A stretch of 64,000 bases of DNA from Tupaia tana (taxonomy: Eukaryota; Chordata; Mammalia; Scandentia; Tupaiidae). The stretch covers positions 2,666,001 through 2,730,000 of the forward strand of contig JAKSZU010000013.1 in NCBI GenBank assembly GCA_026018925.1, in the 5' to 3' direction. This document shows positions 34,470 to 60,901 of the stretch, one piece after another. A model generated the notes under the pieces. That model did no database searches, had not been told where the DNA came from, and saw only the letters and a list, made by a program, of their open reading frames with translations. The position numbers and the translations under genes were made by a program. Position 1 is the first letter of the stretch. Every line of letters starts with the position of its first letter.

Positions 34470-34963
34470 CTACAGGTTGGTTGTATGGGTCTTTAAGGTG
34501 AACTCGCAACCCACCCAACCCGCAAACCTGATAGAGCCGGCCAGAATTTCTGGACACCAGGCAGTCTGAGGCTGCAGGCCCAACCTCCCTGTACCCCTCA
34601 CTCATCCTCTGGTCCTTCCCCACTTGCATTTGGACTCTGAATTTTAGTGATTTAAATAGCACGTGGCGTGTGTTGCATGCCACGTGATTTCTCTTTTTGT
34701 TTTGATTTTCTTTGCTCTTGAGGTATTGCTTATTAGGTCAGTTGGAGGCTTACCACTCCTTAGAAACAGAGAGGACTTTGGGGCATCCAGGACTCGTGGC
34801 AACAGTTAATGGTAATTGTGAGCAACTGGTAGGCCAACAATAAGAGAAATCATCAATTTTCTAAACTTGTACAACTTTTAATACTCAGAGATACCTTTAA
34901 TAAGTTAGGAAGCAACATATAGATTACCTGATAACTAGGAATGATCACAGAGGCTCAAGAAAT
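34470..34963 (+). promoter_or_regulatory. L1 5' UTR
   Basis: From the TSD edge to the ORF1 start. GC-richer at its beginning (CCCACCCAACCCGC at about 34,509) and AT-rich near ORF1. By family knowledge it should hold the sense promoter; no specific factor site was identified. Confidence 0.7.
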
Positions 34964-35899
34964 ATGAGCAACCAACCAAAGGCCTCTCCCTCAAGGGAAA
35001 TCATCAAGCCTACATCACCCACAGTCAATACAATGGACGTCGTGGACATGTCTGATAAGGAATTCAGAATATTTGTAGTGATCATACTAAATGAGATGGA
35101 AGAGAAAAGAGACAAGGAGCTCAAGGAGATGAGGAAGTCCTTTCATGAATTGAAAAAGGAAATGAATGCCTTAAACAAGAACCAGATGGAACTTCTAGGA
35201 ATGAAGAATGTGAAACAGGAAATCAAAACCTCCCTTGAAAGTATTAAAAGTAGGTTAGACCAGGCAGAAGATCGAATCTCTAATGTAAAAGACAAAACAT
35301 CTGACCTAGAAAAAGGCATCAAGAAGATTGAGAAAACAACCATGAAAAATGAGGATAATATACGAGGAATACTGGATATCATCAAGCACCCAAACATCTG
35401 GATAACTGGTATTCCAAAAGAGGAAGAAAAAATAAGGGCCTATATAATTTATTCCATGAAATCCTGGAAGAAAAGTTTCCAAACCTAGAAAGGCATTAGA
35501 CTGTCCAGACCCAAGAAATACATAGGACTCCGAGTAGAATCAACCCAAGAAGATCCTCTCCAAGGCACATCATAGCCAGACTGGCAAAAACAACAGAGAA
35601 AGACAAGATACGAAAGTTGGCAAGAGGGAAACATCAAGTTACTTACAAAGGTCACCCCATCAGGCTAACATCGGATCTCTCGGCGGAAACAATGCAGGCA
35701 AGGAAAGAATGGGGAAACATAGTCAAAGTGTTGAGTGAAAAACAATTTCAAGCAAGAATATTATACCCGGCAAAATTATCTTTCATATGGGAAAAAAAAG
35801 ATAAAAACATTCTCGGATAAACAAAATTTGAAGAAATTTACCAACTCCAGACCAGCTCTTCAAGAGGTTCTGAAGGGAGTACTATACCAGGAAAACTAA
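34964..35899 (+). pseudogene. L1 ORF1 pseudogene
   Basis: ORF1p is the L1 RNA-binding chaperone: a coiled-coil trimer followed by an RRM and a C-terminal domain. Here the DKEFRIFVVIILNEMEEKRD start and a long heptad region (about 35,090-35,330) lead to HPNIWITGIPKEEE, the RRM entry. A TAG at 35,486-35,488 ends the first frame. The C-terminal part (VTYKGHPIRLTSDLS and LYPAKLSF) continues in another frame at 35,617-35,820, with the stop near 35,899. Confidence 0.93.
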
Positions 35900-35943
35900 A
35901 AATCAGACAGACAGTTACATGAGAACAAAAAGCAACCAAGAAA

Positions 35944-38333
35944 ATGGCTCACTTAATGATAGGATCAGGTACGGAAATATTGATAATTACATTGAATGTC
36001 AATGGATTAAATTCTCCAATTAAGAGACATAGACTGGCTGAATGGATAAAAAGCAGAAACCCTCTATGTGTTGCCTACAAGAAACTCACCTTATGGATAA
36101 AGACATACATAGACTAAAAGTAAAGGGCTGGAAAAAGATATTCCATGCAAATGGAAATCAGAAAAGGGCTGGAGTAGCGATAGTGATCTCAGACAAAATA
36201 GATTGCAAGACAAAGACTGTAAGAAGAGACAAAGAAGGGCATTATACAATAGTAAATGGGGTAATCCAGCAAGAAGACATAACTCTTATAAATATCTGTG
36301 CACCCAACTCAGGTGCACCTAAATATGTGAAGGAAAGATTGCTGGAGTTAAAAGAAGAGATAGGGAGAAATACTATAATTGTTGGAGATCTCAACACCCC
36401 ATTATCTACTTTAGACAGATCTTCTAGACAGAAAATAAATAGAGAGATACAGGACCTAAATGATACTATAAATCAAATGGGCTTGACAAATATTTATAGA
36501 ACTTTCCACCCTACATCCACAACATAACCATTTTTCTCACCCTGCCATGGAACCTTTTCAAAGATTGATCATATGTTAGGAAACAAATCAATCCTTTACA
36601 GATTCAAAGACATAGAAACCGTATCCAGCATCTTCTCTGACCATGATGGAATTAAACTCAAGATTAACTTCAAGAAACAACCCCGAAAATACACAAACAC
36701 ATGGAAACTGAACAACCTACTTCTGAAGGACTTCTTCACTACTGAAGAAATTAAGGCTGAAATAAAAAATTTATGGAAACAAATGATAATGAGTACACAA
36801 GTGTCCAGAATCTATGGGACACAGCAAAAGCAGTCTTAAGAGGGAAAGTCATAGCAATTAGTGCATATAAGAAAAGAATGGAAAGATGGCAAATAGATAA
36901 CCTATCATCATGCCTCAGGGAATTGGAAAAACAACAACAAAGGAACCCCAAAAGTGCCAGGCAAAAAGAAATAATAAAGGTTCGAGCGCACATAAATGAA
37001 ATAGAAAATAAACGAACCATACAGAAAATAAATGAAAGCAAAAGCTGGTTCTTTAAAAAGATTACCAAGATCAACATACCATTGACTAAACTGATCATGA
37101 AGAAGAAAGAAAGAAACCAGATTAATCAAATATGCGATGAAACAGGTAATATTACAACAGACATAGCAGAAATACAAAATATCATTAGAGGATACTATGA
37201 GTGACTGTATGCCAACAAACAAGATACCTTCGAGGAGATGGACAAATTCCTGAATGCATAGAATCTACCAAGACTGAATCAGGAGGACGTAGAGAATCTG
37301 AATAGACCCATAGCAAGCCAGGAGATTGAATCAGTAATAAATAACCTCCCAACGAAGAAAAGCCCAGGTCCAGATGGCTTCACTTCTGAATTCTACAAAA
37401 CTTTTAAGGAAGAGTTAACCCCTATCCTACTGAAATGATTTCTAAAGATTCAAAAGGAAGGAAACCTTCCAAATTCATTTTATGAAGCCTCCATCATCCT
37501 TATCCCTGAAACACTTAAAGACATGACAAAAAAGGAAAACTACAGACCAATATCATTGATGAATATAGATGCAAAAATTCTCAACAAGATACTCACAAAT
37601 CATATCCAACAACATATAACAAAGATTATTCATCACAACCAGGTAGGCTTTATCCCAGGGATGCAAGGGTGGTTCAACATACGCAAGACCATAAATGTAA
37701 TACACCACATTAACAGAAAGAAAGATTAAAAACTATATGATCATTTCAACTGATGCGGAGAAAGCATTTGATAAAATACAACATCCTTTTATGATTAAAA
37801 CCCTCAGTAAGATTGGTATAGAAGGGTCATTTCTGAACACAATAAAAGCCATCTATGAAAAACCTACAGCCAACATTATACTGAATGGGGAAAAGCTGAA
37901 AGCTTTACTGCTAAAAACAGGTACTAGACAAGGCTGCCCACTTTCTCCACTGCTCTTCAATATAGTACTGGAAGTCTTAGCTAGTGCAATCAGAGAAGAG
38001 AACAATATAAAAGGCATTCGAATAGGCAAAGAAGAGTTGAAAATATCTTTATTTGTAGATGACATGATGGTATACTTAGAAGACCCAAAGATCTCCATGA
38101 AAAAACTACTTGAAGTAATAAGTGAATACAGTAAAGTGGCAAGATACAAAATCAATATCCAAAAATCTATAGCATTTCTATATATGAACAACAAGTTGAA
38201 CGAAGTAGAGCTGAAGAAAGGAATCCCTTTCACCATAGCCACAAGGTGTATAAGATACCTAGGGATGACCCTAACTAAGGAAAGTCAAAGACCTTTATAA
38301 AGAACATTATGAAAGTCTTTTAAAAGATATTGA
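35944..38333 (+). pseudogene. L1 ORF2 pseudogene, part 1 (endonuclease and RT)
   Basis: ATG at 35,944 opens LIITLNVNGLNSPIK, the start of the APE-type endonuclease. After a frameshift the catalytic-region block CCLQETHL (36,069) and the VGDLNTPL block (36,384) follow, then the RIDHMLGN region (36,563). The RT domain begins with [13 protein letters not shown] codons near 37,355 and has [15 protein letters not shown] (37,743) and an FVDDMMVY box (38,050), in which Val replaces the usual Ala of FADD. Several stops and frameshifts lie between. The coding sequence is cut at 38,333 by the nested element. Confidence 0.93.
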
Positions 38334-38813
38334 GCTGAGAAGATTCCTCATGGAAACTGGGAACTAGATATTTCAGGGCACAGGAGAAATGAAGATTTTC
38401 TACTCATAATTCAGCCTCCAGCAAGCAAAGCTAGTGTGGCAGGAGAGTTGAGCCATTCTCTGAGAAGATTCCTCATGGAAACTGGGAACTAGATATTTCA
38501 GGGCACAGGAGAAATGAAGATTTTCTACTCATAATTCAGCCTCCAGCAAGCAAAGCTAGTGTGGCAGGAGAGTTGAGCCATTCTCTGAGAAGATTTCTCA
38601 TGGAAACTGGGAACTAGATATTTCAGGGCACAGGAGAAATGAAGATTTTCTACTCATAATTCAGCCTCCAGCAAGCAAAGCTAGTGTGGCAGGAGAGTTG
38701 AGCCATTCTCTGAGAAGATTCCTCATGGAAACTGGGAACTAGATATTTCAGGGCACAGGAGAAATGAAGATTTTCTACTCATAATTCAGCCTCCAGCAAG
38801 CAAAGCTAGTGTG
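38334..38813 (+). repeat. Tandem 125-bp units, 3.8 copies (5' region of copy A)
   Basis: Unit boundaries lie at 38,438/38,439, 38,563/38,564 and 38,688/38,689, with an exact period of 125. Each unit starts GCAGGAGAGTTGAGCC and ends AAGCAAAGCTAGTGTG. The copies are almost identical. Tandem 5' units act as promoters in some L1 families; that role is inferred here. Confidence 0.95.
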
Positions 38814-39002
38814 GTAGGGAGCCCCTCTGGCCTTCTATCCCTGTCTCTGTGTCTCTGAGGTCTCTGTCTCTCTCTGCTCCTGTCTCCTCATTTTTTTTTG
38901 GTAATTTTTCCTTTTTACGATTTTTTTAAAGGTAGAGTTTCTCTCTGGCTCTCAGCTCCATCTTTTGTTTTGTTAATAATCCCTTCTGCTCCTTTCTCCC
39001 AG
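38814..39002 (+). other. Intron-like spacer 1 in the unit array
   Basis: Begins GTAGGGAGCCCC directly after TAGTGTG and ends with a pyrimidine tract and CTTTCTCCCAG directly before GCAGGAGAG (189 bases). Excising it joins ...CTAGTGTG to GCAGGAGAG..., exactly the junction between adjacent units at 38,438, 38,563 and 38,688. Confidence 0.8.
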
Positions 39003-39127
39003 GCAGGAGAGTTGAGCCATTCTCTGAGAAGATTCCTCATGGAAACTGGGAACTAGATATTTCAGGGCACAGGAGAAATGAAGATTTTCTACTCATAATT
39101 CAGCCTCCAGCAAGCAAAGCTAGTGTG
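39003..39127 (+). repeat. Exon-like 125-bp unit between spacers
   Basis: One full unit with the same ends as the tandem copies, flanked by a CAG on the left and a GTAGGG on the right. Confidence 0.9.
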
Positions 39128-39314
39128 GTAGGGAGCCCCTCTGGCCTTCTACCTCTGTCTCTGTGTCTCTGAGGTCTCTGTCTCTCTCTGCTCCTGTCTC
39201 CTCATTTTTTTTGGTAAGTTTTCCTTTTTACGATTTTTTTAAAGGTAGAGTTTCTCTCTGGCTCTCAGCTCCATCTTTTGTTTTGTTAATAATCCCTCTG
39301 CTCCTTTCTCCCAG
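39128..39314 (+). other. Intron-like spacer 2 in the unit array
   Basis: 187 bases, nearly identical to spacer 1, with the same GTAGGG start and CTTTCTCCCAG end. A truncated unit (39,315 to about 39,379) follows. A second good acceptor lies further on at 39,565-39,566 (GCTGCACCAG), preceded by a long T/C tract. Confidence 0.8.
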
Positions 39315-39379
39315 GCAGGAGAGTTGAGCCATTCTCTGAGAAGATTCCTCATGGAAACTGGGAACTAGATATTTCAGGG

Positions 39380-39671
39380 TTTTTAACAAAACCGCTGCGC
39401 GGTTTTCTATTTTGTGATTTTTTTTCTTTAAAAAAAAAAAGAAAAGCAATTATAATTTTTTAATTTTTTGTCTTTTTTCTCTCTTTTTGTTGTTGTTTCT
39501 CTCTCTCTTTTTCATTTTCCTTTTTCTTGTCTCTCCACCCAATATCTACTGAATCTGCTGCACCAGCGATCACAACAGAACAGCAATCAGATTCTAGAAC
39601 ACCTCTGTCTGCTTGCTCCTGAACATTGAGGATTAACTTCAAGAATTTGAAAGAAACACGCCATTCATCAG
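39380..39671 (+). promoter_or_regulatory. ORF1 leader of copy A
   Basis: It contains a GC-rich hairpin at 39,388-39,406, T/C-rich DNA to about 39,540, the acceptor-like CACCAG ending at 39,566, and 105 bases to the ORF1 ATG. Only the part from 39,567 on is present in copy B. Confidence 0.7.
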
Positions 39672-40671
39672 ATGACAAGAAATCACCGTCGGATCACGAG
39701 AAATATGGGAAAACGAGAAAATACCTCTCCTCCAATGGAAAAGAGTAACTCTCCTTCATCCACAAGCAGTTTGGTGAAAGTCATGGAAATGTCTGATAAG
39801 GAATTTAGAACATTCGTAATGTCGAAGCTAACAGAGATGGAAGAAAAGAGAGATAATGAACTGCTAAAGAGAAAGGAGAAAGAAGTTGCCGAGTTCCAGG
39901 AGATGAGGAAATTCTTGCAAGATCTAAAAGAGGAATTACACACTTTACAAAAGACTCAAACGGAACTGCTAGAGATGAAGTCTATAATACAAGAAGTCAA
40001 AATCTCCCTTGAAAGTATTAAAAGCAGACTAGATCATTCAGAAAATAGAATCTCAGATGTAGAAGAGAAAATGGCTGGCTTAGAAAAGTCCACCACCAAG
40101 ACAGAAAATGGCTCAAAAATTTGAGAATGATATGCGAGAAGTACTGGATACCATCAAACGTCCAAATATCCGGATAATTGGCATTCCAGAAGGTGAAGAG
40201 ACCCATAAGGGCATTGATAATCTATTCCATGAAATCCTGCAAGAAAACTTTCCAAACCTAGAGAGGCATTTGAAGATCCAGTCCCAGGAAATACAAAGGA
40301 CCCCAAATAGAATCAACCCAAGGAGATCTTCTCCAAGACACATTATAGCCAGGTTGACCAAAACCGCAGACAAAGACAAGATACTAAGATTGGCAAGAGA
40401 GAAACATCAAGTTACCTACAAAGGACATCCTATCAGGCTAACAGCAGATCTCTCATCAGAAACAATGCGAGCGAGGAGAGAATGGGAAAATATATTCAAA
40501 GTGTTACGAGAGAAGCAATTTCAGCCAAGAATACTGTACCCGGCAAGATTATCTTTCAGGTGGGAAGAAAAGACAAGAACATTCTCAGATAAACAAAACC
40601 TGAAAGAATTTACCAGCACCAGACCAGATCTCCAAGAAGTTCTCAAGGGTGTGCTGTATCAAGAAAATTAA
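39672..40671 (+). pseudogene. HAL1-like ORF1, copy A (one 2-bp deletion)
   Basis: ORF1p binds element RNA as a trimer and acts as a nucleic-acid chaperone. ATG at 39,672 opens an N-terminal basic segment, then MEMSDKEFRTFVMSKLTEM and a heptad coiled coil (about residues 50-145). The RRM entry is RPNIRIIGIPEGEE, and the C-terminal domain has VTYKGHPIRLTADLS and ILYPARLSFRWEE, ending at TAA 40,669-40,671. Compared with copy B, two bases are missing near 40,103 in the coiled-coil/RRM linker, so the first frame ends soon after. Apart from that the two proteins differ at only a few residues. Expected length without the deletion is 333 residues, normal for L1 ORF1p. Confidence 0.93.
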
Positions 40672-41670
40672 ACACAGACACACGGAAATAAGAGTCAAAA
40701 AACTAGGAAAGTGGCCAACTTAATCAGAGGGAGAAGTCTGGAGTTGAATACTATATCCCAGAATTTAATCAGGAAAATTGAACCAGAACAGAAGATAAAA
40801 GTACATGAGACTGATAGGTTCATGCACCTTCCATTTGAACAGAATCCTAACTTGTTTCCTGGCTTTAAGCTAAGTTCCTTGGCATTTCTTTGAGTTAAGT
40901 TAAAACTGGTTTTCTTAGTAGTAATGAGTGAACTCACCATTGAAAGTAGTTAGATTATGTAGGAAATTGTGTGATCAACGCAACGTGGGTGGGAAGGGAA
41001 TGAAGGACAATTGTAGACACCGGAGGTGGTGTGAGAGGAGGGTGGGAAGGGACAGAGGGTCAGAAAGAGGGGTGGAAGTAATTCTAGGAACTAGTAATGG
41101 AAAATTTTTTGTAATGTGCATGATTGTATCACTATGCAGTGTGTACTGGATGGGAGATTGCATTTTGTATGTTGTGATGAAGCTTAGGGAAGGAATGTAA
41201 ATTGAGTTACAAAAAAAAAGTTTCAGAAAAAAAAATATATATCTATTCAATGACTGCAGTAGGATATGTAGCCACAGCTAGGTACTACTTTATAGGATGC
41301 GTAAAGTAAGACTTGTGTTCATGGAAATGTGGGTATCACCTGTGTTTGCTATGAGGGTATTTGGATTGATTAGGGTCTTTGGCGTTACAATAAAATGTGA
41401 GGAGAAAACAGTATAGAAAGCAAACATAGTTACCAGAGACTGTGGGAGGAGAGTGGGAGATGGCAGAGGGTAAGAGATAGAGAATCTAGGATGGGGGGAA
41501 AAAAGCAAAACATACAGAAGACAAGAAATGGAAGATCATTTGCTGACAATAACATGTTTGTTGATGTGCTTGATTGAGACAATATATAGTGTAATTTGGA
41601 TGGAAAATCTCATTTTGTATGCTGTAATGATGTTCAGAGAATGAATGCAAATAAATAAATTGAAAAAAAA
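40672..41670 (+). other. Double 3' tail of copy A
   Basis: Two related modules follow ORF1. Module 1 ends GGGAGATTGCATTTTGTATG, GTGATGAAGC, GGAATGTAAATTGAGTTAC plus A9 (about 41,219). Module 2 ends GGAAAATCTCATTTTGTATG, GTAATGATG, GAATGCAAATAAATAAATTG plus A9 (41,670). Each has a purine-rich GGGAGG-type stretch before it. No ORF2 sequence is present. Confidence 0.8.
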
Positions 41671-41675
41671 ATTGA

Positions 41676-43187
41676 AAGTGACTTTAAAAAGGAGAAGGAC
41701 ATCCCATGCTCCTGGATTGGAAGAATTAACATAATCAAAATGTAAATTCTACCCAAATTAATCTACATGTTTAATGCAATTCCAATCAAACTACCAGAAA
41801 TATTTTTCACAGATCTAGAAAAGACAATCATAGAATTTGTCTGGAATCATAAAAGACCTCATATTGCAAAAGCAATCCTGTGCAAGAAGAATGGAGTAGG
41901 AGGCATATCACTCCCTGAACCCAAGATATATACTATAAAGCTGTGGTCATCAAAATAGCATGGTATTGGCATAAAAACAGACATGTAGACCAATGGAATA
42001 GAATAACAACCCCAGAAATAACCCCCAAAGCTTACAACCAACTGATTTTTGACAAGGGCTATCAATCAATCCATTGGGAAAAGGAAAACCTCTTTAGTAA
42101 ATGGTGCTGGAAAAACTGGGTATCCACGTGAAGAAAAATGAAACTGAACCCCCATCTTTCACCATTAACAAAAATCAACTCAAAATGGATCAAAGATCTG
42201 AACCTAAGACCTCAAACAATAAAACTACTGGTGGAAAATGCTGGGGAAACTCTGGGAGACATTGGAGTAGGCAAAGACTTCTTAAATAAGACTCCCAAGG
42301 CACCGGCTATAATCCCTAAAATAGACAAGTGGGACTGTATCAGACTTAGAAGCTTCTGCACAGCAAAGGACATGGTAACAAGTGTGAACCGACACCCCTC
42401 AGAATGGGAAAATATTTTTGTTACATATGCTTCAGACAAGGGACTGATAAGCAGAATACACAGGGAACTCAAGTGCCTTATGCGAAAAAAAATGATGAAC
42501 CCAATTACAAGATGGGAAAATGAGCTGAACAAAAGTCTCTCTAAGGAAGACATACGAACAGCCAAAAAGCATATGAGGAAATGCTCAACATCCCTCATTA
42601 TCAGGGAGATGCAGATTAAAACCACAATGAGATACCACCTAACCCCTGTCAGAATGGCAAAGATGAAGAATGTAAAAAGTGGTAAGTGTTCGCGGGGATG
42701 TGGTGAAAAGGGAATCCTCCTACACTGTTGGTGGGAATGTAAATTGGTTCAACCACTGTGGAGAACAATATGGAGGTTCCTGAAAGATCTACAAATAGAA
42801 GTACCATTTGATCCAGCAATCCCACTTCTGGGTATTTACCCAAAAGACAGGAGAACGCTCAGTCAGAAAAGTGCTTGCACATCAATGTTTATTGCAGCAT
42901 TATTCACAATTGCCAAGACATGGAACCAACCTAAATGTCCACAAACTGATGAATGGATTGGAAAAGTGTGGTATATATACTCTATGGAATACTACTCAGT
43001 CATAAAAAATAACAAGACCCTGGCATTTGATAGAAAGTGGTCAGATATGGAGGATCTATTGCTGAGTGAAGTAAGCCAGGCTATGAAAGAAAGATATTGT
43101 ATGTGTCCACTCAATATATACCGACTATCCGCACTCTATGGTAGAGAGCAAAATATTGGAGGACATAAAAGCAGTAAAGGTACTTAA
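41676..43187 (+). pseudogene. L1 ORF2 pseudogene, part 2 (C-terminal)
   Basis: It resumes with the DIPCSWIGR block, [13 protein letters not shown] and [14 protein letters not shown] 349-codon open segment (42,138-43,187) follows, carrying [30 protein letters not shown], the cysteine/histidine-containing [16 protein letters not shown], and [19 protein letters not shown]. Stops at the start put the first part in other frames. It belongs to the same ORF2 as 35,944-38,333. Confidence 0.93.
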
Positions 43188-44056
43188 TGAGAATAGGACA
43201 GTGTGGAATGGGGGAGCTGAAGAGAAGAGGATAGAGAAAGATAGCAAGAGAACAATAGAGAGGCAGGACGTTAGTGAGAAACAGATATGGCTTATTGACT
43301 GTAGATAATGACATGTATAGTATTCTTAACTGGATTGGTCTGAGAAGTATTTCATGATGGACAAAGTCTTTTTACAAGCAAAATGAGAAATAGTGATCGA
43401 CTGTTTTAAAAAAATAATTAGAATAATAATAATAATGATTGGGGAAAACATAGAAAAGATATTGAATGTTGAAGTGGGGAGATTAATGTCTCTGTACTGA
43501 CTGACATGCATGGCACTCCCTTTTGAAAAATCATTGTAATACACTGTAAAGTTATATGTAATCCAATGTAATATAAAGAAGAATATGATAATAAATATTT
43601 TAAAAAGGAAAAAAAGCAGTGAAAGTACTTAAGGAGAATAAGACAGTATGGAATGGGGGGATGAAGAGAAGAGGATAGAGAAAGATAGCAAGAGAACAAA
43701 TAGAGAGGCAGGACGTTAGTGGAAAACAGATATGGCTTATTACCTGTTGATGATGGCATGTATAGTATTCTCAACTGGATTGGTCTGAGAAGTATTTCAT
43801 GATGGGTAAAGTCTTTTCAGAAGCAAAATGAGAAATAGTGGTTGACTGTTTGAAAAAAATAATTAGAATAGTAATAATAATGTTTGGGAAAAACATTGAA
43901 AAGCTATTGAGTGATGAAGTGGGGATATTAATGTCTCTGTATTGACTGACATGCATGGCATTCCATTTTGAAAAAGCAATGTAAAACACTGTAAAGTTAT
44001 ATGCAATCCAATGTAATATAAACAAGATTATGATGATAATAAAAAATAGAAAAGAA
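43188..44056 (+). repeat. Tandemly duplicated L1 3' UTR
   Basis: Unit 1 (about 43,166-43,612) starts AAAAGCAGTAAAGGTACTTA and ends GATAATAAATATTTTAAAAAGG. Unit 2 (about 43,613-44,056) starts AAAAGCAGTGAAAGTACTTA and ends GATGATAATAAAAAATAG. Internal blocks such as GAAGTATTTCATGATGG and GACTGACATGCATGGCA occur in both. The second unit is the normal 3' end, before the TSD. Confidence 0.9.
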
Positions 44057-56273: not shown

Positions 56274-56573
56274 AGTTCCCAGGTCTTGAATATATGTTGC
56301 CCAGATGCACAATACACGTTGTGTAGACACTACCCAGACAGGTTTCTGTATCTAGTAGTGAATAGACTACTGACTAGAAGGTCAATTAGAAGATGTTAAT
56401 TCCAGAAAATGTAACAAAAAAATAAAGTCATGTGTAAAATGTCAAAGAAAACTCTCCACTTCTCTGGGGTCTAGGGAGTCTCTGGTTGGGAAGCTGGGGG
56501 GACACCAGCACCAATGGAATGGCATGCTCACATTTTGTTGGCATGATCCCATAGACCCAACAATGACTTGGAT

Positions 56574-56836
56574 TTATTTATTTATTTATTGAGAGGTTTT
56601 TGCTATAGGGCGCGTGCGCTCATCAGAAAGACAGAGAGACAGGAAGACAAAGTGAGAAATCACCCCCCAGTGGGGATGGCCACGCTGCAATCCCTTCTTC
56701 TCTATTTTCCTCTCTGGATCTTGGGCACGCATGCTCACATGCTGGGTGTGAGTTTAAGCCACCAGGTCCGGGACTCGAACTGTGGTCAACTACATGGAAG
56801 TTCAACAACATAGCCATTACACTAACTGCCGGTCCC
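56574..56836 (-). mobile_element. Long-form SINE inside copy B
   Basis: TTTATTTATTTATTTATTGAGAGG tail side, GCTATAGGGCGCGTGCGCTC, CACCCCCCAGTGGGGATGG and the right end TAACTGCCGGTCCC. Copy A has the empty site near 14,870-14,885. Confidence 0.93.
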
Positions 56837-57754
56837 ACTGACTCTGATTTCTTAACAGAGTATAGATTTATATATAAACCTTTGTTAACGTCAACACAGA
56901 TTATTGCCCCATAGACTCCCCTATATGTGAAGGGGGAGGTTAATACTTTAAAACTGGATGGTGACAAATATCACCTTAAACACAGTTACATCTGGCTACG
57001 CTGGTTGGGTTGTAACAGAATACCCTGTTTGATATTTCCTTTTTTCAGTTTATGATGTAAGATCTGTCAACACAAAGTATAAAGTCACGATTATCCAATA
57101 GGGTATTGTGTAAGGCAACATGATCCCACACCATTATGCTGTTTGCTGTCACCTGGTAGAGGTATTAGTGGCTCAAGGTTAAGTAAATTGCAGTGTAGTA
57201 GATGAAGATTATAATAGAAGAAAAGAATTTCCTAAGATGCTAGGCTATTGAAAGAAGCAAAGTTTGATGAATTCAGGAGACATCCTGCCACATGTGAGTC
57301 TCGAAGAACAGTTCTTTTCCTAAAACTAAGATCTCTCCGATTTGACTTGTGCTCCCACTGTTTTCAAACAATTAGATTAGCCTTGCATCTGGGTCTAATT
57401 GCAGGCTACAAGTTGACACTCCTTCAAACCCTTAAAGGAAATAGAACCTGGTACACTTTAAGCTCAGAATGCTTCACAAACAATATTTCTGATGTGATTT
57501 TTTTTTATAGCTGAAGGATGGGAGGAAGCTGCTTCTTTAAGACATTTAAACATTCCATTAATGATGTTAAACCTTAATATCATAACTAATTCCAATTCAG
57601 GATTCAATGGCCCTGGCTGGAAAAAAAAGGGTTCTCCCCATAGTTTATGAGCACCCCAAGGAAAACCCTTGGATTTTGAGGATAATAATTGTGACTAAGG
57701 TCAAGTTACAATCAGGGGTTACTCGGGGTACCATTTTCATCAGCTACCAAGAAT

Positions 57755-58330: not shown

Positions 58331-59425
58331 CTATCAGAATCAACATCACCAGAACTCTGAAAGATAGCCAACAGTTCATAGCAACTAAGTATAAAGACAT
58401 ACTGAACTTTTTTTTTCTGTTTCTTTTTTTTTTCCAATTTATTTATTTGCATTCATTCTCTGAACATCATTACAGCATACAAAATGAGATTTTCCATCCA
58501 AATTACACTATATATTGTCTCAATCAAGCACATCAACAAACATGTTATTGTCAGCAAATGATCTTCCATTTCTTGTCTTCTGTATGTTTTGCTTTTTTCC
58601 CCCCATCCTAGATTCTCTATCTCTTACCCTCTGCCATCTCCCACTCTCCTCCCACAGTCTCTGGTATCTATGTTTGCTTTCTATACTGTTTTCTCCTCAC
58701 ATTTTATTGTAACGCCAAAGACCCTAATCAATCCAAATACCCTCATAGCAAACACAGGTGATACCCACATTTCCATGAACACAAGTCTTACTTTACGTAT
58801 CCTATACAGTAGCACCTAGCTGTGGCTACATATCCTACTGCAGTCATTGAATAGATATATATTTTTTTTTCTGAAACTTTTTTTTTGTAACTCAATTTAC
58901 ATTCCTTCTCTAAGCTTCATCACAGCATAGAAAATGCAATCTCCCATCCAGTACACACTGCATAGTGATACAATCATGCACATTACAAAAAATTTTCCAT
59001 TACTAGTTCCTAGAATTACTTCCACCCCTCTTTCTGACCCTCTGTCCCTTCCCACCCTCCTCTCACACCACCTCCGGTGTCTACAATTGTCCTTCATTCC
59101 CTTCCCACCCACGTTGCATTGATCACACAATTTCCTACATAATCTAACTACTTTCAATGGTGAGTTCACTCATTACTACTAAGAAAACCAGTTTTAACTT
59201 AACTCAAAGAAATGCCAAGGAACTTTGCTTAAAGCCAGGAAACAAGTTAGGATTCTGTTCAAATGGAAGGTGCATGAACTTATCAGTCTCATGTACTTTT
59301 ATCTTCTGTTCTGGTTCAATTTTCCTGATTAAATTCTGGTATATAATATTCAACTCCAGACTTGTCCCTCTGATTAAGTTGGCCACTTTCCTAGTTTTTT
59401 GACTCTTATTTCCGTGTGTCTGTGT

Positions 59426-60427
59426 TTAATTTTCTTGATACAGCACACCCTTGAGAACTTCTTGGAGATCTGGTCTGGTGCTGGTAAATTCTTTCAGGTT
59501 TTGTTTATCTGAGAATGTTCTTGTCTTTTCTTCCCACCTGAAAGATAATCTTGCCGGGTACAGTATTCTTGGCTGAAATTGCTTCTCTCGTAACACTTTG
59601 AATATATTTTCCCATTCTCTCCTCGCTCGCATTGTTTCTGATGAGAGATCTGCTGTTAGCCTGATGGGATGTCCTTTGTAGGTAACTTGATGTTTCTCTC
59701 TTGCCAATCTTAGTATCTTGTCTTTGTCTGCGGTTTTGGTCAACCTGGCTATAATGTGTCTTGGAGAAGATCTCCTTGGGTTGATTCTATTTGGGGTCCT
59801 TTGTATTTCCTGGGACTGGATCTTCAAATGCCTCTCTAGGTTTGGAAAGTTTTCTTGCAGGATTTCATGGAATAGATTATCAATGCCCTTATGGGTCTCT
59901 TCACCTTCTGGAATGCCAATTATCCGGATATTTGGACGTTTGATGGTATCCAGTACTTCTCGCATATCATTCTCAAATTTTTGAGCCATTTTCTCAGTCT
60001 TCGTGGTGGACTTTTCTAAGCCAGCCATTTTCTCTTCTACATCTGAGATTCTATTTTCTGAATGATCTAGTCTGCTTTTAATACTTTCAAGGGAGATTTT
60101 GACTTCTTGTATTATAGACTTCATCTCTAGCAGTTCCGTTTGAGTCTTTTGTAAAGTGTGTAATTCCTCTTTTAGATCTTGCAAGAATTTCCTCATCTCC
60201 TGGAACTCGGCAACTTCTTTCTCCTTTCTCTTTAGCAGTTCATTATCTCTCTTTTCTTCCATCTCTGTTAGCTTCGACATTACGAATGTTCTAAATTCCT
60301 TATCAGACATTTCCCTGACTTTCACCGAACTGCTTGTGGATGAAGGAGAGTTACTCTTTTCCATTGGAGGAGAGGTATTTTCTCATTTTCCCATATTTCT
60401 CGTGATCCGACGGTGATTTCTTGTCAT
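59426..60427 (-). pseudogene. HAL1-like ORF1, copy B (one early stop, otherwise open)
   Basis: ATG at 60,427 is followed by TGA at codon 15 (60,383-60,385), where copy A has CGA, so this is a CpG-type transition. From the next in-frame ATG (60,364) 312 codons are open to the end at 59,426. Coiled coil, RRM entry RPNIRIIGIPEGEE, VTYKGHPIRLTADLS and ILYPARLSFRWEE are all present. The downstream ATG could still give a protein lacking 21 N-terminal residues with all folded domains. It would bind RNA but cannot copy it. Confidence 0.92.
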
Positions 60428-60759
60428 CTGATGAATGGCGTGTTTCTTTCAAATTCATGAAGTTAAGCCTCAATGTTCAGGAGCAAGCAGACAGAGGTGT
60501 TCTAGAATCTGATTGCCGTTCTGTTGTGATCGCACACTAGCTTTGCTTGCTGGAGGCTGAATTATGAGTAGAAAATCTTCATTTCTCCTGTGCCCTGAAA
60601 TATCTAGTTCCCAGTATCCATGAGGAATCTTCTCAGAGAATGGCTCAACTCTCCTGCCACACTAGCTTTGCTTGCTGGAGGCTGAATTATGAGTAGAAAA
60701 TCTTCATTTCTCCTGTGCCCTGAGATATCTAGTTCCCAGTATCCATGAGGAATCTTCTC
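60428..60759 (-). promoter_or_regulatory. Spacer-free 5' UTR of copy B
   Basis: Two units (the 5' one partial) are followed at about 60,533 by the leader. The join reads CTAGTGTG then CGATCACAACAG, equal to copy A positions ...39,127 joined to 39,567.... Confidence 0.85.
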
Positions 60760-60901
60760 CATACTGAACTTTTGAACTTTTATTCCTGACCTGTTACCTC
60801 AGTGGCCTTGCCAGTCATTCAGGACTGGATGCTATGCATCATCATTTGCATAGAGACTTGAATGCAGACCTAGGGCAACTTTTCCTACAAAAGATAAGTC
60901 C

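Follow-up and report, generated by a model that had tools for sequence, protein, structure and literature searches.

The window analyzed here is a stretch of 64,000 nucleotides from Tupaia tana (assembly GCA_026018925.1, contig JAKSZU010000013.1, positions 2,666,001 to 2,730,000 of the forward strand). It contains two copies of a long interspersed nuclear element (LINE) that is HAL1-like and carries ORF1 only. In all probability, this is a LINE with intron-bearing promoter monomers in its 5' untranslated region (UTR), whose RNA is spliced and then reverse transcribed, and whose monomer has also been amplified as a satellite. The sequence is modular and the borders between its modules are exact. 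The insertions are complete, and their starts carry a cap-type guanine. The spliceosome would be the agent that removes the stretches missing between the modules.

In the following, U denotes the 125-bp unit, I the spacer, u the shortened last unit, G the 187-bp tether, and E2 the exon with ORF1. A slash, as in U/U or U/E2, marks the border where two modules meet, and a number after U is a position in the unit.

Under the proposed mechanism, transcription would start within each U, mainly at U17. The 5' border of U would serve as a 3' splice site and its end as a 5' splice site, and the spacers I would be introns. The final intron would run from the last full U through I, u, and G to the CACCAG in front of the ORF1 exon, u being without a donor. 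Capped transcripts, presumably starting at U17, would be spliced in part or fully, and their target-primed reverse transcription (TPRT) would give 5' UTRs of joined units. Insertion would probably be aided by an L1 ORF2 protein, because the element encodes no ORF2. The U+I monomer, joined U.U forms included, would have been amplified as a satellite, most likely seeded from retrotransposed 5' UTRs.

The two copies in the window

Copy 1 lies on the plus strand and reads U(22-125) U U U I U I u G E2. Its 5'-incomplete first unit (U positions 22-125) occupies 38335..38438 and is preceded by a guanine at 38334. Full units are located at 38439..38563, 38564..38688, 38689..38813, and 39003..39127, and GCAGGAGAG marks the unit starts at 38439, 38564, 38689, 39003, and 39315. 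There are three direct U/U joins, at 38438/39, 38563/64, and 38688/89. The spacer of 189 bp (38814..39002), which follows the 5' splice site at the end of the unit at 38689..38813, and that of 187 bp (39128..39314) both read GTAGGG...CTCCCAG and are 97% identical. The query unit is 99-100% identical to the four other full-length units. The preliminary description had reported these 125-bp units, both spacers, and the three direct joins, and all of them are confirmed. Absent from it were copy 2, the shortened unit u (39315..39379; no donor; the first 65 bases of the unit, in many copies ~61), and the tether G (39380..39566; 187 bp), which ends in CACCAG, the putative acceptor of the final intron (I+u+G). 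Exon 2 with ORF1 follows at 39567..40672, its frame shifting part-way relative to copy 2, and the 3' region lies at 40673..41671.

The strength of the donor was scored with a position matrix entered by hand and expressed as a percentile of all GTs on the plus strand of the window, and that of the acceptors was taken as the percentile of pyrimidine content among all AGs. The donor GTG/GTAGGG is in the 94th percentile. The two spacer acceptors are in the 99.5th percentile, with 46-47 upstream bases free of AG. The CACCAG acceptor at the tether end is in the 70.8th percentile, a value for pyrimidines only, and is preceded by 120 bases free of AG.

Copy 2 (60759..58425, minus strand) reads U(24-125) U E2. 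It consists of a 5'-incomplete first unit (60658..60759; U positions 24-125), a full unit joined straight to the ORF1 exon with the final intron absent (60533..60657), and exon 2 with ORF1 and the 3' region (58425..60532). I, u, and G are missing together. The gap falls exactly between TAGTGTG and CGATCACAACAG, and the end of the last unit at 60533 directly adjoins the exon start at 60532. The second, different acceptor apparent in copy 2 is the stronger evidence for splicing, because exchange between repeats cannot yield this join.

ORF1 of copy 2 is open (59426-60364, minus strand; 312 codons plus stop), and its L1 type is confirmed by the Pfam domains Transposase_22 (1.8e-32) and Tnp_22_dsRBD (9.6e-23). 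The distance from its stop to the A-rich tail, ~1.0 kb, is too short for an ORF2. A 14-bp target-site duplication (TSD), AAAAGTTCAGTATG, was found by eye at 60760..60773 on the 5' side and, past the A-rich tail, at 58398..58411 on the 3' side. With tandem units, a tether, and starts that lie within the units, the element has a 5' UTR of the monomer type known from L1.

Exactness of the joins in genomic copies

Copies were located in the window's own assembly through an E2-start pattern, which, at up to three mismatches, matched 2,039 places (control, 0). One hundred of the 2,039 places were listed, ordered by mismatch and then by contig, of which 69 were parsed and 31 were left out. The 69 copies consist of 68 fetched loci (L001-L030 and L033-L070) and copy 2, taken from the window, and they are biased toward close copies. 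L061, which is below the identity cut of the script, was entered by eye as U17-U-E2, and L018 was tallied in its first-fetched version, without its upstream part. L009 and L059 were placed in the unspliced class, since part of G remains in them. An extra set of ten copies on small contigs (L092-L101), mostly older, was taken from the list of exact G/E2 matches.

The most frequent module strings, with E2 abbreviated to E, are UUE (19 copies), UUIuGE (13), UE (12), UIuGE (5), UUUE (4), and UUUIuGE (4), and the remaining 12 copies are spread over 11 rarer strings. The final intron is missing in 37 of the 69 copies, and G is whole or partial in 32. At least one joined border is present in 63 copies; the six that have none (five UIuGE and one UIGE) each contain one full unit. 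I, u, and G are kept or lost as a block in all but three copies (66/69; the exceptions are L009, L059, and L063).

Exact loss of the spacers at GT-AG, a check put forward in the preliminary description, holds where whole spacers are missing: U/E2 is exact in 37 of 37 cases and U/U in 74 of 77. The corresponding figures are 29/29 for I/u, 36/37 for U/I, 9/10 for I/U, and 28/32 for G/E2. The three inexact U/U joins are accounted for by a 9-bp unit-start repeat and a unit-start base change, both in L026, and by a base change near the unit end in L056. By eye, the failures of the script were traced to an extra 9-bp GCAGGAGAG in L026 and L027 and to a base change near the unit end in L056 and L045. 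As in the spliced integrated retrotransposed elements (SpIREs) of human L1, the missing stretch is bounded exactly by a donor GT and an acceptor AG.

Genome-wide, at up to three mismatches and with a reversed-pattern control of 0 for both joins, 937 spliced U/E2 and 2,193 unspliced G/E2 joins were counted, a figure that for the latter would take in copies truncated within G. About 30% of the final joins, of all ages, are spliced by this count.

A number of observations weigh against splicing as the explanation of every loss. Canonical splicing does not explain L009, in which U is joined to mid-G with no AG at the join, or L063, which has lost most of u between two ATTCT repeats. Nor does it explain L059, an older copy of nine joined units, the last of which is joined to u without I, and in which most of G is gone. 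I has been lost raggedly and in part in L093 (cut at 52), L101 (113, one place), and L095 (3' part only). The preliminary description had named imprecise spacer ends in many genomic copies as evidence that would speak against it; losses of whole spacers are exact, but ragged losses do occur, in L063, L009, L093, L095, and L101. Moreover, only one of the 69 copies (L059) has a unit joined at the strong acceptor before u, and the CACCAG acceptor that would be used instead is much weaker by pyrimidine content. Our guess is that the acceptor before u is skipped because u has no donor (exon definition).

Two of these copies deserve further mention. In part of the L059 array the units alternate between two variants, like a two-unit higher-order repeat. 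L101 has five full unspliced monomers ahead of u-G-E2, which represent either a long LINE 5' UTR or a LINE next to a satellite array. Together with the six of the 69 copies that have no joined border, it speaks for the proposed mechanism.

Insertion hallmarks and 5' ends

Among the 18 copies with a 3' flank, which were surveyed without a shuffled control, 15 (nine spliced and six unspliced) have TSDs of at least 10 bp beyond the A-rich tail. The duplication is shorter in L033 (8 bases) and L035 (6 bases), and L045 has none. The insertions, spliced copies included, are of the TPRT type, with TSD and A-rich tail, as is the case for SpIREs.

The commonest 5' end is U17, in CC/ATTCT, which is found in 33 of the 69 copies. 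In 32 of these 33, the start is preceded by a guanine; the unit has C at this position, and the flanks have 20% G (binomial P ~1e-21). We read this guanine as a copied cap. Further start sites at U20, U24, and U93 are likely, because starts there also follow a guanine (4/4, 6/7, and 4/4, respectively). U17 lies in CCATTCT, which we take to fit the initiator consensus. Judging from these 5' ends with their cap-type guanine, a monomer would have promoter activity.

Recurrent splicing or inheritance

On a tree of 49 rows, based on E2, ORF1, and the 3' sequence, the spliced and unspliced states require 17 changes, versus a mean of 16.6 for shuffled labels, and hence show no more clustering than these. 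Both final states occur in seven of the eight readable unit-haplotype groups, which are defined by three unit positions, although in one group via the odd copy L059 only. A ninth group, in which the markers are unreadable, also holds both states. L019, which is unspliced, and L035, which is spliced, are sisters with 94% support in the Shimodaira-Hasegawa-like approximate likelihood ratio test (SH-aLRT). On balance, these data favor many recurrent splicing events.

Alternatively, splicing may have occurred only a few times, with both forms then inherited side by side by separate masters. The tree is poorly resolved, 36 of its 46 inner branches being open, and its starred branches force just two changes. 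Upstream of the final intron, U/U (77 joins) is far commoner than U-I-U, as if the masters had joined units, and U/U joins may have been inherited over several generations. Such inheritance sits poorly with the mixed haplotype groups and with the sister pair L019 and L035, and we consider it unlikely as the general explanation. The poor resolution of the tree makes recurrent splicing likely, not proven.

The U+I satellite

The U+I monomer is also the repeat of an abundant satellite. Genome-wide, 364,703 U/I and 361,446 I/U borders were counted. With ~313 bp per monomer, ~365,000 junctions amount to ~114 Mb of 2,948 Mb, or 3.9% of the assembly. In 10-kb stretches of two contigs (C2 and C3), the U+I repeat runs head to tail at a spacing of 311-316 bp, and the satellite is present in 10 of 20 further contigs sampled. 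It thus forms long head-to-tail arrays in many copies. The sampled monomers are of two main types, A and B. GTAGGG is found as their donor in 72 of 76 cases, CCCAG as their acceptor in 82 of 82, and CCATTCT as their start motif in 72 of 75.

In the first 12 satellite stretches sampled, I follows U in 84 of 84 cases, which had suggested that U/U is confined to the LINE. This idea was dropped, since the genome-wide count of 46,370 U/U joins shows the sample to be unrepresentative. The expected share of the LINE is ~3,500 joins (~3,100 copies, with 77 joins per 69 copies). Therefore most U/U joins, being far in excess of this number, lie outside the LINE. It follows that a lone U/U join is not proof of fresh splicing, a weakness that the U/E2 joins do not share. 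It must also be held against splicing within the LINE that part of its U/U joins could in principle come from the satellite.

Of the 76 gaps that separate consecutive listed exact-match U/U places on contig C22, 48 are 431-440 bp, which is the length of U.U-I (~436 bp), and three are 124 bp. A 621-base piece of this contig reads U/U/U-I-U/U with the identical join, and its units resemble type B at most of the markers. U.U-I is the core of the commonest string among the unspliced-class LINE copies. On contig C55 the U/U spacings are longer and compatible with several compositions, and nothing is drawn from them.

A direction from LINE to satellite, perhaps taken more than once, is favored, not proven, by the following comparisons. 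L036 (5172-6301), with 89% identity to the window in U and 88% in I, is more diverged than any sampled satellite, the sampled satellite units being 92-98% identical to the window unit. The same holds for the LINE copy L095 (E2 91%), which retains U and, of I, the 3' part. In a tree built from monomers, a group nested within the LINE rows (support 87) unites 32 of the 33 satellite rows with the LINE copy L018; in this tree, 52 of 65 inner branches are open and the outgroup is not on one side of a branch. The satellite row L072 falls near older LINE copies.

The opposite order, in which the satellite came first, the LINE captured its monomers as a promoter, and the joined units were copied from the satellite, draws on L018. 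The array of this copy (with L091) reads U I U I U U I U U I U I u G E2, with seven units and u. In four of these units no base differs from the majority sequence of type A; another is closer to L072. Exchange from the satellite back into the LINE is possible. Because homogenization hides the age of the satellite, leaving diversity no guide to it, the direction has to be inferred. Nevertheless, the greater divergence of U and I in L036 (and of U and the 3' part of I in L095) and the position of the satellite rows inside the LINE rows run counter to a satellite-first origin, which moreover leaves the U/E2 joins unexplained. We regard this order as rather improbable.

Under the favored direction from LINE to satellite, the simplest reading is that the arrays were seeded by retrotransposed, partly spliced 5' UTRs, because the U/U join of the satellite equals the one that splicing would make. 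A one-off DNA event at the U/U base that was later amplified is an alternative origin, not favored as the simplest. We lean toward a satellite founded through RNA, in which partly spliced, reverse-transcribed LINE 5' UTRs seeded the arrays and the U/U scar came to be repeated tens of thousands of times. The arrays, which keep start, donor, and acceptor, could in turn be transcribed, be spliced to poly-U RNA, and feed units into the LINE.

Loss or gain of spacers at the DNA level

It may also be supposed that the spacers were removed by deletion or unequal exchange at the DNA level. Array turnover of this kind is seen: the units within one element are mostly of one haplotype, regular U.U-I repeats occur on contig C22, and I has been lost raggedly in L093, L095, and L101. 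Exchange between repeats, however, alters an array in multiples of the 314-bp period, and its units stay separated by the spacer; by eye, the borders have only ~2 shared bases. Furthermore, the ~440 bp dropped at the final join (I+u+G) have no repeat at either end, and their loss is exact in 37 of 37 cases. Removal at the DNA level is thus very improbable as the source of the joins. The argument that a U-u junction should result from exchange between these two was dropped, since such exchange removes a whole period and keeps the spacer.

Least credible of all is insertion of spacers into a spacer-free array, by intron gain or as a separate repeat, the possibility that the preliminary description had set against its own proposal: spacer-free arrays are common among the 69 copies, and in three old copies (L094, L098, and L100; E2 86-89%) the stretch read contains units and a short tether and no I, but U/I and I/U borders are near-equal in number, and the piece missing from copy 2 includes unit and tether sequence and not just a spacer.

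The earlier proposal that units are exons, that spacers are introns, and that spacer-free arrays come from spliced, reverse-transcribed RNA is supported by these results at the DNA level.

Other features of the region

Copy 1 sits inside an older L1 (37127-38315 and 41663-42656). No duplication of at least 8 bp was found for copy 1 in a search whose 3' stretch ended near 41300, short of the true end at ~41671. The older L1 extends over ~34500-38315, with ORF1-like sequence at ~35039-35909, and no U, I, or clear G similarity was found in its 5' region within ~34500-38315. Homology of the HAL1 tether to the 5' UTR of this L1 was considered and dropped, the matches being just short and of low complexity.

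The boundary between u and G (39315-39420 in the window, and in many of L001-L070) contains a GC-rich palindrome, e.g., GCGCGGCGCGCAAGCGCGCCGCGCGG, that is variably shortened between copies. L042 and L062 are without it and are joined at a TTTC repeat. The shortening looks like hairpin skipping by the reverse transcriptase or DNA slippage. An Rfam scan of the array region gave two bacterial families far under the cut-offs, which were disregarded. Elsewhere in the window, there is a tandem duplication of ~445 bp with 90% identity at 43167-44039, and a ~265-bp repeat resembling a short interspersed nuclear element occurs at 56573-56844 and in five more places.

Comparison with known systems

HAL1 (half-L1), which Bao and Jurka reportedly described in 2010, is said to have an L1-type ORF1 and no ORF2, and the present element matches both. 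We know of no report of an intron-containing monomer array in HAL1. Satellites are known to arise from parts of transposable elements, a piece of the element being amplified head to tail, as here. Unlike other element-derived satellites of which we are aware, the piece amplified here appears to be a promoter-exon-intron cassette, and the splice-type junction in some of the arrays would mean that RNA had been involved in their origin. A literature search over titles, the starts of abstracts, and few subscription papers brought up neither intron-bearing monomers of a LINE nor a satellite with their splice join, which is weak evidence of novelty. In the part of the sloth satellite paper (PMC7644632) that was considered, HAL1 is cited in the references only.

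If the proposed mechanism is true, splicing would act on a LINE promoter as a matter of routine and not as a rare accident, and splicing of RNA together with reverse transcription would offer a way to compact promoter arrays. The scar left by splicing would also serve as a directional marker, in that scar-bearing arrays should descend via RNA from a LINE-type transcript if U/U is spliced. This gives the origin of an abundant satellite an explanation that can be tested.

The closest parallel is with the human L1 SpIREs, in which, in the part of the account drawn on here, splicing of LINE RNA within the 5' UTR and target-primed insertion leave deletions at splice sites in copies with L1 hallmarks (PMC5860796). 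In contrast to what that part describes, every promoter monomer here has splice sites, the final intron is missing in 37 of 69 sampled copies with at least one joined border in 63 of 69, and the joined form occurs as a satellite too (PMC5860796). The weakened promoter that makes a SpIRE a dead end may not apply here, since joined units would retain the start region.

The mouse L1 5' UTRs similarly have tandem promoter monomers, with a tether ahead of ORF1; the tether of Gf_I begins with a truncated monomer of 64 bp, like u here (PMC9022269, in the part consulted). Cryptic splice sites predicted in L1spa might account for 22 mouse copies (PMC9022269, citing Belancio 2006). Unlike the mouse monomers as that part presents them, those of the present LINE appear to hold a full intron with its own donor and acceptor, and the copies read as spliced make up a large fraction here, as opposed to a handful in mouse (PMC9022269).
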